Assembly: GCA_002167435.2 (NCBI GenBank)
Contig: NHBR02000119.1
Span: forward strand, 1 to 64,000
Source: Allomuricauda sp. TMED12
Lineage (GTDB): Bacteria > Bacteroidota > Bacteroidia > Flavobacteriales > Flavobacteriaceae
Reading direction: 5' to 3'
Length of the DNA stretch: 64,000 bases
Shown here: piece by piece, positions 41,401 through 47,038 of the stretch
How positions within the stretch are numbered: position 1 is the stretch's first letter
How the letters are laid out: each line of letters begins with the position of its first letter
Notes under the pieces: generated by a model
Databases searched by the model: none
The model's input: only the letters and a program-made list of their open reading frames with translations
Told to the model about the DNA's origin: nothing
Made by a program: the position numbers and the translations under genes

Positions 41401-42324
41401 TTATTTCTTCAAAAAATCGATGTTGCGTTTCAGTCCTGACAGTTTTGTTCTTTTTACTGCAGACTTTTTAAACACTTTTTTAAAAACATCTTCCGTAATT
41501 TCCTCCCAATCTTTTTTTGTGAATGCCAACAATTCTGGATTGGGATTGAAAAGAGGCTCATTATGAGGTTTTGAAAAGCGGTTCCATGGGCATACATCCT
41601 GACATACATCGCAGCCAAACATCCAATCGTCCAGTTTCCCATCAAATTCAGAGGGAATCTCATTCTTGAGTTCAATGGTAAGGTACGAGATGCATTTGCT
41701 TCCATCCACCATGTAAGGTTGCACAATGGCATCGGTTGGGCAAGCATCAATACAAGCAGTACAGGTACCACAATGGTCGGTTACAGGGGAGTCATAATCC
41801 AGCTCCAAGTCAACAATCAGTTCAGCTACAAAGTAAAACGAGCCCACTTGCTGAGTCAATAAGTTACTATGTTTGCCAATCCATCCCAATCCGCTTTTAG
41901 CGGCCCAAGCTTTATCCAGAACAGGTGCCGAATCCACAAATGCCCTTCCGCACACTTCCCCTATTTCCTCTTGAATGAAATGCAGCAAAGTCTTTAGCTT
42001 ATCCTTTATCACAAAGTGATAATCTGTGCCATAGGCGTATTTGGAGATTTTAAAGGAATCCGAGTTCTGTTCCTCAGAGGGAAAATAATTCAACAACAGT
42101 GAAATAACCGATTTGGAACCTTCGACCAATTTTGTAGGATCTAAACGCTTGTCAAAATGGTTCTCCATATACTGCATCTCGCCATGCATGTTTTGGTTAA
42201 GCCACTTTTCCAATCTGGGCGCTTCTTCCTCCAAAAACTCAGCTTTGGAAATACCACACGATAAAAAACCGAGGCGTTTGGCTTCGGTTTTTATAAGTTC
42301 TGTATTTTTTTGAAGAGCATTCAA
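41401..42324 (-). CDS. queG: Epoxyqueuosine reductase
   Basis: Cobalamin- and Fe-S-dependent enzyme that completes queuosine in tRNA. The two 4Fe-4S clusters are marked by [16 protein letters not shown] and [11 protein letters not shown]; the protein ends after a short C-terminal region. There is no in-frame ATG at the N-terminus. The TTG at 42324 gives 307 residues beginning [19 protein letters not shown], matching where relatives start; a TTG at 42363 would add 13 residues. A diverged second copy of this N-terminus at 43496-43546 begins at GTG at the same codon, which supports the TTG at 42324. The cupin gene ends 54 bases upstream on the same strand, so queG may be read from the TetR-controlled cupin promoter. 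Confidence 0.9.
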
Positions 42325-42378
42325 TATGGGTGCTTCGTAAAATATTGATATGCCAAGATACAAAAGAGAAAATCATTA

Positions 42379-42819
42379 TTACCGTGGCGGCGGAATGGCC
42401 ATATCAAAATCCGATGCCATAGCTAGAACCTTTTGAATAATTTCAGGCTCCACGGATTTCATAATTGCGTTGTCCTCACTTGCCGGCACCCCAAAAGTTT
42501 CAAAAAACTTGTAAAACCCTTTAGGGCTGTGAATATTTACCCAAGTACAATTAGAATTTGTTTTGTTACTGAATGTATGCAAGGTTCCCGGTGGAATATC
42601 TACAGATTCCCCCTCCTTGCATATGAAGGTTTCTCCATTTATAAAAAATTCCAGTTCCCCTTCCATAACCATAAAAGCTTCTTTGTATTCGCTATGCGAA
42701 TGTGGAGGCGGACCTTGCACTCCAGCCGGAGTTTCGCAGAGAACTAAATCATAATCACCTGTAGTAGGGTGAAATGTTATCTTATGGCCCAAGACCCATT
42801 TTGAAGTATTGTTTTTCAT
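42379..42819 (-). CDS. Cupin-domain protein under TetR control
   Basis: A 146-residue single-domain cupin. The two metal-binding motifs are visible: HSHSEYKEAFMVMEGELEFF (about residues 40-60), and a second around SVDIPPGTLHTF. The substrate is unknown; small cupins serve as isomerases, dioxygenases or sensors. The ATG at 42819 is chosen, since the upstream ATG at 42846 lies inside the -7 promoter box. The gene is divergent from tetR, sharing a 72-base spacer with two matching dyads, so it is the most likely target of that repressor. No terminator is visible before queG. Confidence 0.85.
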   Translation of the reverse strand: MKNNTSKWVLGHKITFHPTTGDYDLVLCETPAGVQGPPPHSHSEYKEAFMVMEGELEFFINGETFICKEGESVDIPPGTLHTFSNKTNSNCTWVNIHSPKGFYKFFETFGVPASEDNAIMKSVEPEIIQKVLAMASDFDMAIPPPR

Positions 42820-42822
42820 TTC

Positions 42823-42840
42823 ATGAGATTTTTGTCTCAC
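42823..42840. promoter_or_regulatory. TetR-type operator O1
   Basis: ATGAGA-TTTTTG-TCTCAC is an 18-base dyad with one mismatch. It starts at the last base of the cupin -7 box, covers the presumed transcription start and ends four bases before the cupin ATG, where a bound repressor would block initiation. It matches O2 at 16 of 18 positions. Confidence 0.7.
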
Positions 42841-42871
42841 AAACATACCTGTTAATTTCTTTAAATCAAAA
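42840..42871 (-). promoter_or_regulatory. Promoter of the cupin gene
   Basis: On the minus strand TTTTG (42871-42867), a 19-base spacer and TATGTTTG (42847-42840) give an excellent match to the Bacteroidota promoter. Operator O1 abuts and overlaps its -7 box by one base. Confidence 0.7.
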
Positions 42872-42875
42872 TTTT

Positions 42876-42893
42876 ATGAGATATTTGTCTCAT
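42876..42893. promoter_or_regulatory. TetR-type operator O2
   Basis: ATGAGA-TATTTG-TCTCAT has perfect 6-base arms. It overlaps the first two bases of the tetR start codon (42892), suggesting autorepression. Its centre is 53 bases from the centre of O1, about five helical turns. A GATATTTG one base off the -7 consensus lies inside it. Confidence 0.7.
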
Positions 42894-43488
42894 GAAAAAT
42901 GAGCATATCAAATCTGGACGCAAAAAACAGAAACAAAATACAAGAGATAAAATTCTAGAGGCCACTCGAAAATTACTGGAGAAAAAAGAGCCTTTATCCA
43001 TGGAAAAAATTGCACAGCATGCTGAAATTTCCAGAGCCACCATTTACCGGTACTACACCAATACCGATTCCATCTCTATGGATCTATTGCTCCAACTTAA
43101 CGTACCAGATACCAGTACCATTTTTGACCAAAACAAAGCAACTGCTCCCAGCGAGGCCATTTTAAGTATTCAAAAGGCCTATTTGGATTTTAGTTTTAAA
43201 AATGAACAAACTTCAAGAAAATTCTTGGCTGCCGTACTTTCCTCCACCAATTCCAAAATGAAGCGTGGACAAAATCGGATAACAACGCTTCGGAATTATT
43301 TTGAGGGCCATCAGACCTCGTTAACTGAGGAGGAAAAGGAAAAATTAATCCATGTCTCGGTACTTTTAATGGGTATAGAATCCGTAATTACCGCTAAAGA
43401 TGTTTGCGGGCTTGACGACGAAACAGCTGCCGCCTCGATTACATGGGGATTAGAAATGATTTTGAAAGGTTGTAACCTCAAAGATTAA
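42892..43488 (+). CDS. TetR/AcrR family transcriptional regulator
   Basis: A 198-residue repressor. The N-terminal helix-turn-helix (about residues 19-62) reads RDKILEATRKLLEK, then MEKIAQHAEISRATIYRYYTN, the standard TetR pattern; a lysine-rich tail of about 18 residues precedes it. The C-terminal ligand-binding domain is diverged, with no ligand identifiable. Two copies of a TGAGA-N6-TCTCA dyad lie in the spacer with the divergent cupin gene, one on its own start codon, so it probably represses both genes. The stop is followed after six bases by a hairpin that is part of a queG fragment. Confidence 0.93.
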   Translation: MKNEHIKSGRKKQKQNTRDKILEATRKLLEKKEPLSMEKIAQHAEISRATIYRYYTNTDSISMDLLLQLNVPDTSTIFDQNKATAPSEAILSIQKAYLDFSFKNEQTSRKFLAAVLSSTNSKMKRGQNRITTLRNYFEGHQTSLTEEEKEKLIHVSVLLMGIESVITAKDVCGLDDETAAASITWGLEMILKGCNLKD

Positions 43489-43494
43489 AAAAAA

Positions 43495-43517
43495 CGAGGC
43501 GTTTGGCCTCGGTTTTT
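43495..43517 (+). terminator. Terminator of tetR formed by a queG fragment
   Basis: CGAGGC (43495-43500), loop GTTTG, GCCTCG (43506-43511) followed by a T run (43513-43517). The same bases encode the TEAKRL part of a truncated queG start on the other strand. The intact queG gene has the matching hairpin in its coding region. Confidence 0.65.
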
Positions 43518-43546
43518 ATCAACTGCGTATTTTTTTCGGCATTCAC
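43496..43546 (-). pseudogene. Truncated second copy of the queG 5' end
   Basis: The minus strand from GTG at 43546 reads [17 protein letters not shown], then runs into the tetR end. The intact queG begins [19 protein letters not shown]: 14 of 17 residues match with one 3-base indel, and DNA identity is roughly 80% over about 50 bases. Similarity stops at the start codon on one side and at the tetR stop on the other. It is too long and too in-frame to be chance. It suggests that the cupin-tetR pair entered at the head of queG, leaving or bringing a second queG start. Confidence 0.8.
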
Positions 43547-43589
43547 GCCATAATGTTAACCCATAATTTTTCGATTTTTAGCATATGGG

Positions 43590-44000
43590 CTATTGGGCTT
43601 CTTTGATATAGCCCCAGCCTTCTTTTTGTTTCATGATGATTTCATAAATACCATCGGGTACAGAACCTACTCCGGGAATAAGGTTGTCCATCGTCATTTT
43701 ATGCCTTTTCATGGTCTGTTCGCAAATCACTATGTCCACATTGTTCCTTTTAACAATATCTGTCAAAGTTTCTCCGGCTACGGATGATTTCCTGTCTACC
43801 ATTTTATAGGCTCCGCTATATATCACTAATTCAAACTCCGATTGCGGATAGGCTTCGGCCATCAATCTTAAATGTTTGGCTGCTGTCCTATGTACATCGG
43901 GATTGCTGCTAGTTACATCAAATACTACTTTGATGGGTTCGGTTTGTGCCAGCATAATACCTGACACCATCAACATAAATAACACGATTAGTTTTTTCAT
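43590..44000 (-). CDS. Exported DsrE-like protein
   Basis: A 136-residue protein with a signal peptide (MKKLIVLFMLMVSGIMLAQ) from the ATG at 44000; the longer start at 44036 would put 12 residues in front and overlap the upstream gene. The mature part has DsrE/TusD-like layout: KVVFDVTSSNPDVHRTAAKH, FELVIYSGA, then DIVICEQTMKRHKM with one Cys, ending GVGSVPDGIYEIIMKQKEGW and GYIKEA. DsrE-family proteins carry sulfur as persulfide on a Cys; this Cys is at the usual place. It is the last gene of a three-gene operon with a Tat-exported DsrE-like protein and a TsdA-like cytochrome. Confidence 0.78.
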   Translation of the reverse strand: MKKLIVLFMLMVSGIMLAQTEPIKVVFDVTSSNPDVHRTAAKHLRLMAEAYPQSEFELVIYSGAYKMVDRKSSVAGETLTDIVKRNNVDIVICEQTMKRHKMTMDNLIPGVGSVPDGIYEIIMKQKEGWGYIKEAQ

Positions 44001-44008
44001 TTTTTCTG

Positions 44009-44683
44009 TTATTCTCCTGCAAAAATGTAACCACATCCTTCTTCTTGTGCCCTACCTAAGGCCCACACTCCAGAGGGCACTAACTGAATTCCGGGCAGTA
44101 CGGCATCTTTCCATTCTTCGTAAACTTCAGTTGGATCCTGTCCCATTTGTTGGGCAACTGCACCACTGTAGACATTCAGCGCCAGATTACAAACGCAGAA
44201 CATGGCACCTCTACTTTGCATGTCTTTAATCCCTTGAATCATTGGAAGCGGAAAATCGCCTTCTTGTGGCTCGTAAAATGGATTACGATCATACGGGGTT
44301 CCATCTGCTTTTTTAACGTGGAACATTTCACCCAAGGGATACTTTTTCCAAAGGTCGTCGTGCAATGCAAAGGGAATTGCGTCATGTCGAAGTACGGTCA
44401 TTGCCGTAATTTGATCATCCGAAGAACCCATTTCGTTGTTGGATAGATAGTATGCCCAGTTCCAAATTATTGGAAATCCTTTGTGCGGATAATTCCCATC
44501 ATAAACCACCCTATGCTTTCCCTTTATTGTTTTCATCCAGGACTCGGCATCGCCCATTTCTAAATCTGTAAAATCGGTCATTCCTGCAAATACAGGGTTT
44601 GTCAAAGCCGATAATGTGGATGCAGTGGCACCGAGCATCATCGCTCCCATAAAATTCCGTCTTGATTTTGTTGTTGTTCTCAT
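44009..44683 (-). CDS. Tat-exported DsrE-like protein
   Basis: A 224-residue protein with a twin-arginine signal (KSRRNFMGAMMLGATAS) and cleavage near NPVFA. The C-terminal part follows the same pattern as the small DsrE-like neighbour: RGAMFCVCNLALNV, then GIQLVPSGVWALGRAQEEGC and GYIFAGE. The CVC is where the neighbour has its single Cys. Tat export implies folding, perhaps with a cofactor or bound partner, before secretion. It lies eight bases before the small DsrE gene and 11 after the TsdA-like gene. A role in periplasmic sulfur handling is inferred. Confidence 0.75.
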   Translation of the reverse strand: MRTTTKSRRNFMGAMMLGATASTLSALTNPVFAGMTDFTDLEMGDAESWMKTIKGKHRVVYDGNYPHKGFPIIWNWAYYLSNNEMGSSDDQITAMTVLRHDAIPFALHDDLWKKYPLGEMFHVKKADGTPYDRNPFYEPQEGDFPLPMIQGIKDMQSRGAMFCVCNLALNVYSGAVAQQMGQDPTEVYEEWKDAVLPGIQLVPSGVWALGRAQEEGCGYIFAGE

Positions 44684-44694
44684 TGTGATTGTGT

Positions 44695-45783
44695 TTACTT
44701 GGTTTTACGCAGTTGATATTCCTTTTGGTAGTAATCCATAATAGGCTGGAAAGGTCCTAACTGATGTTGTTCTTCAGTAAAAGGATCAATGTAGGGACCA
44801 TAGGGAGTGGATACGGGCTTTTTGACCAGATCTGGAAAGTCTGCCTCTCTATTGGGCTTTGTAGGTCGAAGTTTTTGGTTAATGTAGCCTGCTACATCAT
44901 AAGCCTCCTCATCGGTAAGTGTAGGGTTATCAAAGGTGATACCGAAGGGCATATTTCCTTTGATAAATTGAGCTGCGGTAATCACACGTGTCATACCGGC
45001 TCCATTATTATAAGAATCGTTTCCCCACAGTGGTGGGTACAGATATAAGTCATTTTGTGGTAAACGCTGGCCTTGCCCATCTACACCATGGCAGATAACG
45101 CAATGTTTTTGATAAACGTTTTCTCCATGCGCTAAATCAACCGCTCTTTCTGGAATTTTTACTTTTAAAAAACCTTGGCCTTCAATTTTTCCGTTTGAAG
45201 GAGCAGCACGGCCCAACCAATCCATATAAGCGACCATTGCCACCATGGCATCGCTATTTTCCGGCAATTTTCTTCCGTTCATACTGCGTTCCATGCATCC
45301 ATTGATTCTTTCTTCGATGGTGCCAATCTTATTCTCACGCCCTCTAAATTGCGGGAATCTTTTGACCACCCCGATCAATGGTGCGGCATAGGGTTTTGTA
45401 CCTCCATCTAAATGGCAACTTGCACAGGCAAGATTGTTTCCTGCATATATCTGGGTTGAATCTTTTTGTTTGGGGCCAATGTGCAGCGGTGTATTTCTAA
45501 AAATTTCAAATCCTTTTTTTACAAGTATGTTTTTTTCGGTCAAGGACAAATTGTTCACATCGTAATCCATATAGTACACGCCATCTGGAATCGTGGCCAG
45601 CCCTTTTTCGGGACCGCCAAAACCAAAACCAAAACCGAAGCGCATCATCATAATGCCAAAAGCCATCACAATTATCAATGCTGAAAAAAATCCGATATAC
45701 ATCATCAATTTACGTATTTGACCGGTCACCAGCTGAACATCTCCCATTTCGGATGTTCCCGAGTTTTTAAGGTTATCCCCCAT
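44695..45783 (-). CDS. TsdA-like dihaem cytochrome (thiosulfate dehydrogenase/tetrathionate reductase family)
   Basis: A 362-residue c-type cytochrome anchored by one helix (about 27-47) rather than a cleaved signal. Two haem sites, CASCH (120-124) and CVICH (228-232). The TsdA hallmarks are present: GTKPYAAPLIGVVKRFPQFRGRE, ERINGCMERSMNG with Cys163 at the position of the unusual cysteine haem ligand, and KGNMPFGITF with Met278 as likely distal ligand of the second haem, then LTDEEAYDVAGYIN. TsdA joins two thiosulfate to tetrathionate or does the reverse. Two DsrE-like exported proteins follow in the same operon. The direction of the reaction cannot be read from sequence. Confidence 0.85.
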   Translation of the reverse strand: MGDNLKNSGTSEMGDVQLVTGQIRKLMMYIGFFSALIIVMAFGIMMMRFGFGFGFGGPEKGLATIPDGVYYMDYDVNNLSLTEKNILVKKGFEIFRNTPLHIGPKQKDSTQIYAGNNLACASCHLDGGTKPYAAPLIGVVKRFPQFRGRENKIGTIEERINGCMERSMNGRKLPENSDAMVAMVAYMDWLGRAAPSNGKIEGQGFLKVKIPERAVDLAHGENVYQKHCVICHGVDGQGQRLPQNDLYLYPPLWGNDSYNNGAGMTRVITAAQFIKGNMPFGITFDNPTLTDEEAYDVAGYINQKLRPTKPNREADFPDLVKKPVSTPYGPYIDPFTEEQHQLGPFQPIMDYYQKEYQLRKTK

Positions 45784-46015: not shown

Positions 46016-47038
46016 TTAGAAAAGTCCTCCTTGGATACCACCCTTTTCCCTACCCAAATGTTTGTAAGCCAGTTCGGTTACTTCCCTTCCCCTTGGCGTA
46101 CGCATTATAAAGCCTTGCTGAATCAAGAATGGTTCATAAACTTCCTCTATGGTTTCTGCACTTTCAGACACCGCTGTCGCCAAAGTTGTTATCCCAACAG
46201 GACCTCCTTTAAATTTATCAATAATGGTACTCAGGATTTTATTGTCCATTTCATCTAGACCATGAGCATCCACATTTAAGGCTTTAAGTCCAAATTGAGA
46301 AATCTCCAAATCAATATTTCCGGTACCTTTGATCTGGGCAAAATCGCGAACCCTGCGCAACAATGCATTACATATTCTAGGGGTTCCCCTGCTACGACCA
46401 GCTATCTCTATAGCAGCATCGTTGGTAATCGGAACTTTAAGTATTTCTGCACTACGCTCCACAATGGTGGACAATAGTTCTGTATGATAATATTCCAATC
46501 GGCTCTGGATTCCAAATCTGGCACGCATTGGTGCCGTTAGCAATCCTGATCTAGTTGTTGCTCCTATTAAAGTAAAAGGACTTAAGTTGATTTGTACCGT
46601 ACGGGCATTAGGCCCGGTCTCAATCATAATGTCAATCTTGTAGTCCTCCATGGCAGAATATAAATATTCTTCCACGATGGGACTCAGCCGGTGAATTTCA
46701 TCAATAAAAAGAACATCGCGTTCTTCTAGATTGGTCAGAAGACCAGCCAAGTCCCCTGGTTTGTCCAAAACGGGACCAGAGGTAACTTTAATGTTTACAC
46801 CAAGTTCATTGGCCAAAATATGGGCCAAGGTAGTTTTTCCCAAACCTGGGGGTCCATGAAACAGTGTATGATCCAAAGCTTCTCCCCTAAGATTGGCCGC
46901 CTGCACAAAAATCTTTAAATTTTCGAGTACTTGCGCCTGCCCGGTAAAGTCGTCAAAACTAATGGGGCGTAAAGCTCTTTCTATATCAAACTCTTCTGGA
47001 GAAAGGTTTTCACCTGTTGGGTCTAAATTTTCGTTCAT
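46016..47038 (-). CDS. ruvB: Holliday junction branch-migration ATPase RuvB
   Basis: A 340-residue AAA+ motor that drives Holliday junction migration with RuvA. Walker [11 protein letters not shown], Walker [11 protein letters not shown], sensor regions ([12 protein letters not shown]) and the C-terminal winged helix ([13 protein letters not shown]) are all in place. A TATATTTG box ends eight bases before the ATG, giving a leader of only a few bases. The gene is not linked to ruvA. Confidence 0.97.

Follow-up and report, generated by a model that had tools for sequence, protein, structure and literature searches.

A stranded second queG start suggests cassette exchange between ruvB and queG in Allomuricauda

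Why should a chromosome that carries an intact gene also carry a broken copy of that gene's beginning, a short distance away and in the same orientation? The question is raised by queG, encoding epoxyqueuosine reductase, in Allomuricauda sp. TMED12, where both copies lie within a stretch of 64,000 nucleotides (contig NHBR02000119.1, positions 1 to 64,000; the window) that is part of a 4.34 Mb draft genome, here given the handle G000. A cupin gene and a divergent tetR separate the two copies, and between the broken copy and ruvB lies a further group of genes, here called cassette A. We consider it probable that cassettes are exchanged at the ruvB-queG junction in this genus, and that a relative's tetR-cupin pair, together with its queG start, recombined there into the cassette A locus and left the resident's own start behind as a fossil. 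The ruvB-queG region was retrieved for comparison from 70 other genomes of the genus (71 in total with G000); queG was further compared in a family set of 40 genomes from other genera, hand-picked among 274 with a match and biased toward close ones, and an out-of-family set of 12.

The intact queG starts at 42324 on the minus strand and the second head at 43546 in the same orientation, so that the two starts are 1222 bases apart; the 1225 bases given in the initial annotation count in a 3-base gap. The rest of its description of a second, truncated queG start, about 80% alike in bases, is borne out by alignment: 44 of 54 aligned bases are identical, with one in-frame 3-base gap, and in the translations 14 of 17 aligned residues agree. 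With no more than 3 mismatches allowed, a 28-base core of the head has two occurrences in the window against 0.00 expected from shuffles, and 43489-43590, when searched against the whole genome, matches only itself and 42264-42311, which is the intact queG head (85%, E 5e-9). Chance similarity, which the annotation had itself raised, was rejected on these two counts. The similarity was said to end at the start codon, and between the two heads it does; the remnant itself, however, also takes in its leader and reaches as far as the stop codon of dsrE (43590), as is seen against the genome G018. Nor is the fragment an independently conserved small gene: when every ruvB-queG interval of more than 30 bp (58 in all) was searched with a queG profile and a profile of the end of ruvB, this fragment was found in G000 only. 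As described, only cupin, tetR and their operators lie between the heads, the Pfam-tested genes giving Cupin_2 and TetR_N and neither an integrase nor an excision factor.

Of greatest help is the closest relative, G018, whose queG is 96% identical as protein and whose locus demonstrates the empty site at the level of sequence. It reads ruvB-cytc-g44009-dsrE-queG, with queG intact and without cupin-tetR, and so is a strain of the kind foreseen in the annotation, with queG directly after the 43550-side flank. G000 and G018 are sisters on the ruvB and queG-body trees, and the body of the G000 queG is nearest to that of G018 (0.887). The fossil and its leader agree with G018 at 108 of 111 bases, and for the 21 fossil bases before a palindrome within queG (discussed below) G018 again ranks first (1.00, 21/21), the next five being genomes that share its upstream cassette. 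The leader and head of the intact gene, on the other hand, agree at 102 of 114 bases with G016, a tetR-cupin-queG carrier, and the informative sites in queG nucleotides (nt) 1-60 divide into 8 of donor type, 1 of recipient type and 1 of neither. Because the fossil matches G018 and the intact head matches G016, the fossil is the resident's old head, and a locus like that of G018 has gained cupin-tetR along with the queG head that this pair brought. The annotation's first suggestion, a cassette entering at the queG 5' end with its own head, is thereby supported. Homologous exchange with a relative, offered there as a separate alternative, fares well as to exchange and as to a congener-like locus as its source, and only the separateness of the two is lost. 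A local duplication of the queG start in this genome, with later divergence, would likewise give a pair of copies that point the same way at a distance of 1222 bases, but the copies, at 44/54, match each other far less well than they match different relatives, and we find this account scarcely credible.

The proposed course of events begins with entry of a relative's DNA, carrying tetR-cupin and a queG start, into a resident locus holding cytc-g44009-dsrE. On the right the join would be made by homology within queG, at or after the conserved palindrome; on the left it would be illegitimate, the incoming 3' end of tetR being joined to the T-run of the resident queG palindrome. The outcome would be a chimeric intact queG, with new start and old body, and an old-start fossil between dsrE and tetR. 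Exchange of a whole cassette would need homology at two edges only, whereas stacking would need one homologous and one illegitimate join. What is found in G000 is queG homology on the right, with the switch located no more closely than nt ~43-231, and a left join at the T-run.

The association of head with cargo extends through the genus. Corrected for body identity, same-cargo pairs share more of the head, with a value of 0.103 against 0.022 for the largest of 500 shuffles, and in queG nt ~70-220, past the palindrome, the cargo link is absent (0.0005).

Several points weigh against the exchange as we have reconstructed it. The right switch in G000 lies somewhere between nt ~43 and 231, with nt 61-230 mixed (11 to 9) and nt 231-921 of recipient type (89 to 25); if one breakpoint is assumed in its queG, nt 231 fits best. 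No close donor was sampled, the best tetR being 69% identical, and microhomology at the left join is unseen. In G073, where cassette A is followed by tetR-cupin, the terminator is an unrelated one and the profile found no queG fossil. Finally, the cargo-label shuffles ignore descent, and disjoint close pairs were therefore compared too.

There were 13 such pairs with different cargo and 19 with the same cargo, with a median body identity of 0.87 in both; the same-cargo pairs were additionally limited to a body identity of at most 0.97. Close pairs were selected by ungapped positions, a few genomes with small indels (mostly of the P450 class) may be absent, and G005, of unknown cargo, was excluded from the counts. 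Head identity had a median of 0.52 (0.24-0.57) in different-cargo pairs vs. 0.90 (0.67-1.00) in same-cargo pairs, with no overlap (U=0, p=2e-6), while from nt +60 to +225 the two kinds of pair are alike (p=0.37). These values bear on a simpler account, by which cassettes are inserted, no head is transferred, and the first nine queG codons, being loosely constrained, drift fast. Distant relatives do differ strongly in the first queG codons (~0.49-0.64 identity), as such drift would have it, but heads of equally close pairs part according to cargo, none of the 13 different-cargo pairs shows unchanged heads, and the fossil and the intact head match different genomes; insertion alone is very improbable. 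An identity profile averaged over 68 different-cargo and 50 same-cargo close pairs shows where the change lies. Upstream of the palindrome the different-cargo profile is at the level of distant pairs; it climbs across the palindrome, and by ~+48 to +72 it equals the same-cargo profile. On the other side the averaged edge is the stop codon of ruvB, with a slight dip in the final 36 bases of that gene. From these comparisons, in marine Muricauda-type bacteria small gene sets are swapped and stacked before queG, each with its own first queG codons.

Between the same two core genes, relatives carry differing cargo. All 71 genus genomes searched carry queG, and ruvB is within its reach in 68. The two genes lie 2 bp apart in 13 of the 68 and 429-5528 bp apart in the other 55, where the gap holds at least one open reading frame (ORF) of at least 90 amino acids, smaller ones being disregarded. 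Adjacency of ruvB and queG looks ancestral because out-of-family gaps are also short (-13 to 6 bp in the 6 genomes, out of 12, whose fetched stretch contained ruvB). The cargo ORFs form 13 clusters, 12 of which are described by a representative: a SoxA/TsdA-type cytochrome, a protein without a Pfam match, DsrE, cupin, TetR, P450, two SCO4226-like proteins (one with an AraC-type domain), GIY-YIG, cytochrome c, PIN and PAP2. No recombinase was found in one representative each of these 12, cluster C9 (an ORF opposite dsrE) being unscanned. Classed by the gene nearest queG, the loci comprise 18 of class A, 13 with none, 10 P450, 9 of class B (tetR-cupin), 6 of D, 6 with a cytochrome only, 5 of E, 2 of G, 1 of F and 1 unknown, and the realigned ruvB and queG-body tree of 68 genomes requires at least 25 class changes, with 5 for B alone.

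The palindrome is of interest in its own right. Codons ~11-20 of queG encode a stem followed by a T-run, and a Leu codon here is CTC in 67 of 71 genus genomes vs. 12% elsewhere in queG, in 32 of 40 family-set genomes vs. 6% elsewhere, and in 47 of 79 of a broader named set. In the genus (276 ten-codon windows) as in the family set (86 windows), the ten windows under the strongest codon constraint overlap the palindrome. Predicted stems are stronger than those of codon-sampled sequences (genus means -11.9 vs. -5.9 sense and -13.5 vs. -3.9 antisense), and all six core pairs are intact in 63 of 71 genus and 30 of 40 family-set genomes. The palindrome is mostly lacking in the 12 out-of-family genomes and hence not universal. 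High scores are also seen at single codons in other parts of queG, namely three Ser columns with AGT/AGC, probably due to the two Ser codon blocks. A generic resemblance to terminators was rejected, exact AAAACCGA-(8-14)-TCGGTTTT palindromes occurring at 3 places in the genome, one of which is queG. An Rfam scan gave a single match, far below its gathering score. The intact palindrome is unlisted by the terminator scan, yet folds as a stem with a T-run; the fossil has the form of an intrinsic terminator, a G+C stem with a T-run, on both strands.

Such a structure might be an attachment site for a recombinase encoded elsewhere, with cassettes integrating as units that end in their own head. Near-identity starts at the palindrome in the five pairs printed, switching there from unrelated sequence; the head fossils of both G000 and G080 end at it; and the most codon-constrained windows just described overlap it. 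The palindrome is, however, also a long near-identical block, where ordinary crossovers are expected, and joins lie elsewhere in queG in G026 and G086. The cluster representatives scanned lack a recombinase, and when the intervals of 36 loci were scanned for the palindrome with as many as 6 substitutions allowed, the only match was the fossil of the window, so that the left ends of cassettes are without a palindrome. We regard site-specific integration as unlikely, and prefer recombination between relatives, with rare one-sided illegitimate joins by which cassettes are stacked. Stranded pieces of queG in three further genomes also speak for this.

Strong queG pieces were found in 4 of the 58 intervals, those of G000, G080, G026 and G086. 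In G080 a queG head ends after the palindrome T-run, before a GIY-YIG cassette. In G026 (L046 6075-6160) and G086 (L088) queG codons ~43-60 are joined directly to the ruvB C-terminal tail, and because the two are near-identical, they probably reflect one shared event. G001 gave a weak profile match (E 0.014), and the terminators after dsrE in G001, G004 and G086, which are palindrome-like, were excluded from the fossil count. No mobile-element gene was recognised in the ruvB-queG interval of the window; a GIY-YIG protein with inverted repeats occurs in 5 of 71 loci. In these, G004 (L033), G063 (L093), G074 (L110), G080 (L090) and G086 (L088), the GIY-YIG gene and inverted copies resembling repetitive extragenic palindromes (REP-like) lie upstream of queG, and the pair looks like a small mobile element. 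The exact 23-base REP-like form is present in 9 of 70 genus genomes, 5 of these at the queG locus.

The most similar outcome found on record is that of the dusA and SXT elements (PMC8409611); as with dusA/prfC-type gene-restoring elements, the cassette at the queG locus supplies a new 5' coding end to its target. The dusA elements are 22.8-37.1 kb and carry an integrase and an excision factor, unlike the ruvB-queG cargo, which is 0.4-5.5 kb with no recombinase in the clusters scanned (PMC8409611). For effector-immunity displacement in the type VI secretion system of Vibrio cholerae the authors propose one-sided, homology-facilitated illegitimate joins that strand older genes (PMC5361080). There, as is proposed here, cassettes are exchanged by recombination and older genes are stranded, but immunity genes are kept in 3'-side arrays (PMC5361080), whereas at the queG locus it is a downstream core gene that has its start exchanged, and the cargo serves metabolism or regulation. 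Such recombination events have also been described for small variable segments (PMC2884548). Hotspots flanked by core genes and free of mobile elements, with variable cargo between two core genes as here, have been explained by recombination in the flanks (PMC5635113); unlike in those, the averaged edges are sharp here, at the ruvB stop and queG codons ~11-20. We found no literature on queG with ruvB in flavobacteria. The locus would be a case of cassette exchange at a core-gene start without a visible recombinase, caught during stacking while the fossil is still in place. It also brings to light a palindrome in queG whose synonymous sites are conserved across much of a bacterial family.

As to consequences, the initial annotation's suggestion that queG has come under TetR control is plausible from the arrangement, with the cupin promoter upstream and 54 bases between cupin and queG, and the old palindrome may now terminate both of the convergent transcripts, of dsrE and tetR. 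Somewhat doubtful, in our estimate, is the broader idea that the queG palindrome is at once an intragenic terminator or attenuator gating upstream transcripts and a preferred recombination point for promoter-carrying cassettes, by which queG would repeatedly be plugged into new regulation through its first codons; exchange of this sort could tie queuosine synthesis to changeable promoters. The genus stem is broken in 7 of 10 genomes with P450 upstream vs. 1 of 61 others (p=7e-7). Among named loci, the complete set of six core pairs is present in 13 of 16 with ruvB adjacent vs. 9 of 20 whose gap measures 1300-1420 bp (p 0.04), a P450-sized class set by length alone, and in 29 of 43 others. The association of P450 with broken stems amounts to 4 independent pairs on starred branches of an unaligned tree with an artefactual long branch, and the realigned tree has 4 palindrome changes; because independent losses are few, a connection of palindrome loss with transcription through P450 is a lead only.

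Features of the ruvB-queG region of the window (blank cell, nothing given)
Feature	Position	Strand	Basis
queG, epoxyqueuosine reductase, intact, body recipient-like	41401..42324	-	Pfam QueG_DUF1730 and Fer4_16; body nearest G018 (0.887)
Palindrome resembling a terminator, queG codons ~11-20, conserved across much of the family	42264..42291		Codon statistics, folding
queG start and N-terminal codons, brought with cupin-tetR; right limit somewhere within nt ~43-231 of queG	42265..42324	-	102/114 vs. G016, including leader
Small cupin protein	42379..42846	-	Cupin_2 E 1e-15; cupin in 9/71 genus loci
Operator-like palindrome TGAGATTTTTGTCTCA at cupin start	42824..42839		Read from sequence; related motif in other tetR-cupin loci
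Operator-like palindrome TGAGATATTTGTCTCA at tetR start	42877..42892		Read from sequence; same or closely related motif in 9 tetR-cupin loci
TetR-family regulator, divergent from cupin	42892..43488	+	TetR_N E 1e-7
Old queG head of the resident, now a fossil that ends at the palindrome T-run	43489..43546	-	queG profile; alignment to G018
Old palindrome, between convergent dsrE and tetR	43495..43511		Terminator-like on both strands
Old queG leader, dsrE stop to fossil start	43547..43589	-	Aligned to G018
Cassette A, older resident: DsrE-like protein, Tat-type protein, SoxA/TsdA-type cytochrome c	43590..45783	-	Pfam, ORF clusters; Tat signal read by eye
ruvB, other fixed edge of exchange site	46016..47038	-	Genus comparison

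The operator-like palindromes at the starts of both cupin and tetR have the form TGAGA...TCTCA. For cupin a start at 42819 seems likelier than the one tabulated, because the longer ORF runs through its operator-like palindrome.

At codon 7 of queG, in the region 42301-42306, 56 of 71 genomes of the genus and 39 of 40 in the family set have Tyr, His or Asn, and the rest have Arg or Trp; 13 of the 15 genus genomes with Arg or Trp have cassette A. Codons for Tyr, His and Asn are read by queuosine tRNAs, so that attenuation sensitive to queuosine might be considered, but the pattern may come from protein constraint. Cassette A itself combines the SoxA/TsdA-type cytochrome and DsrE with a protein that has a sub-threshold match to thiosulfate dehydrogenase, and its role is perhaps in sulfur oxidation.
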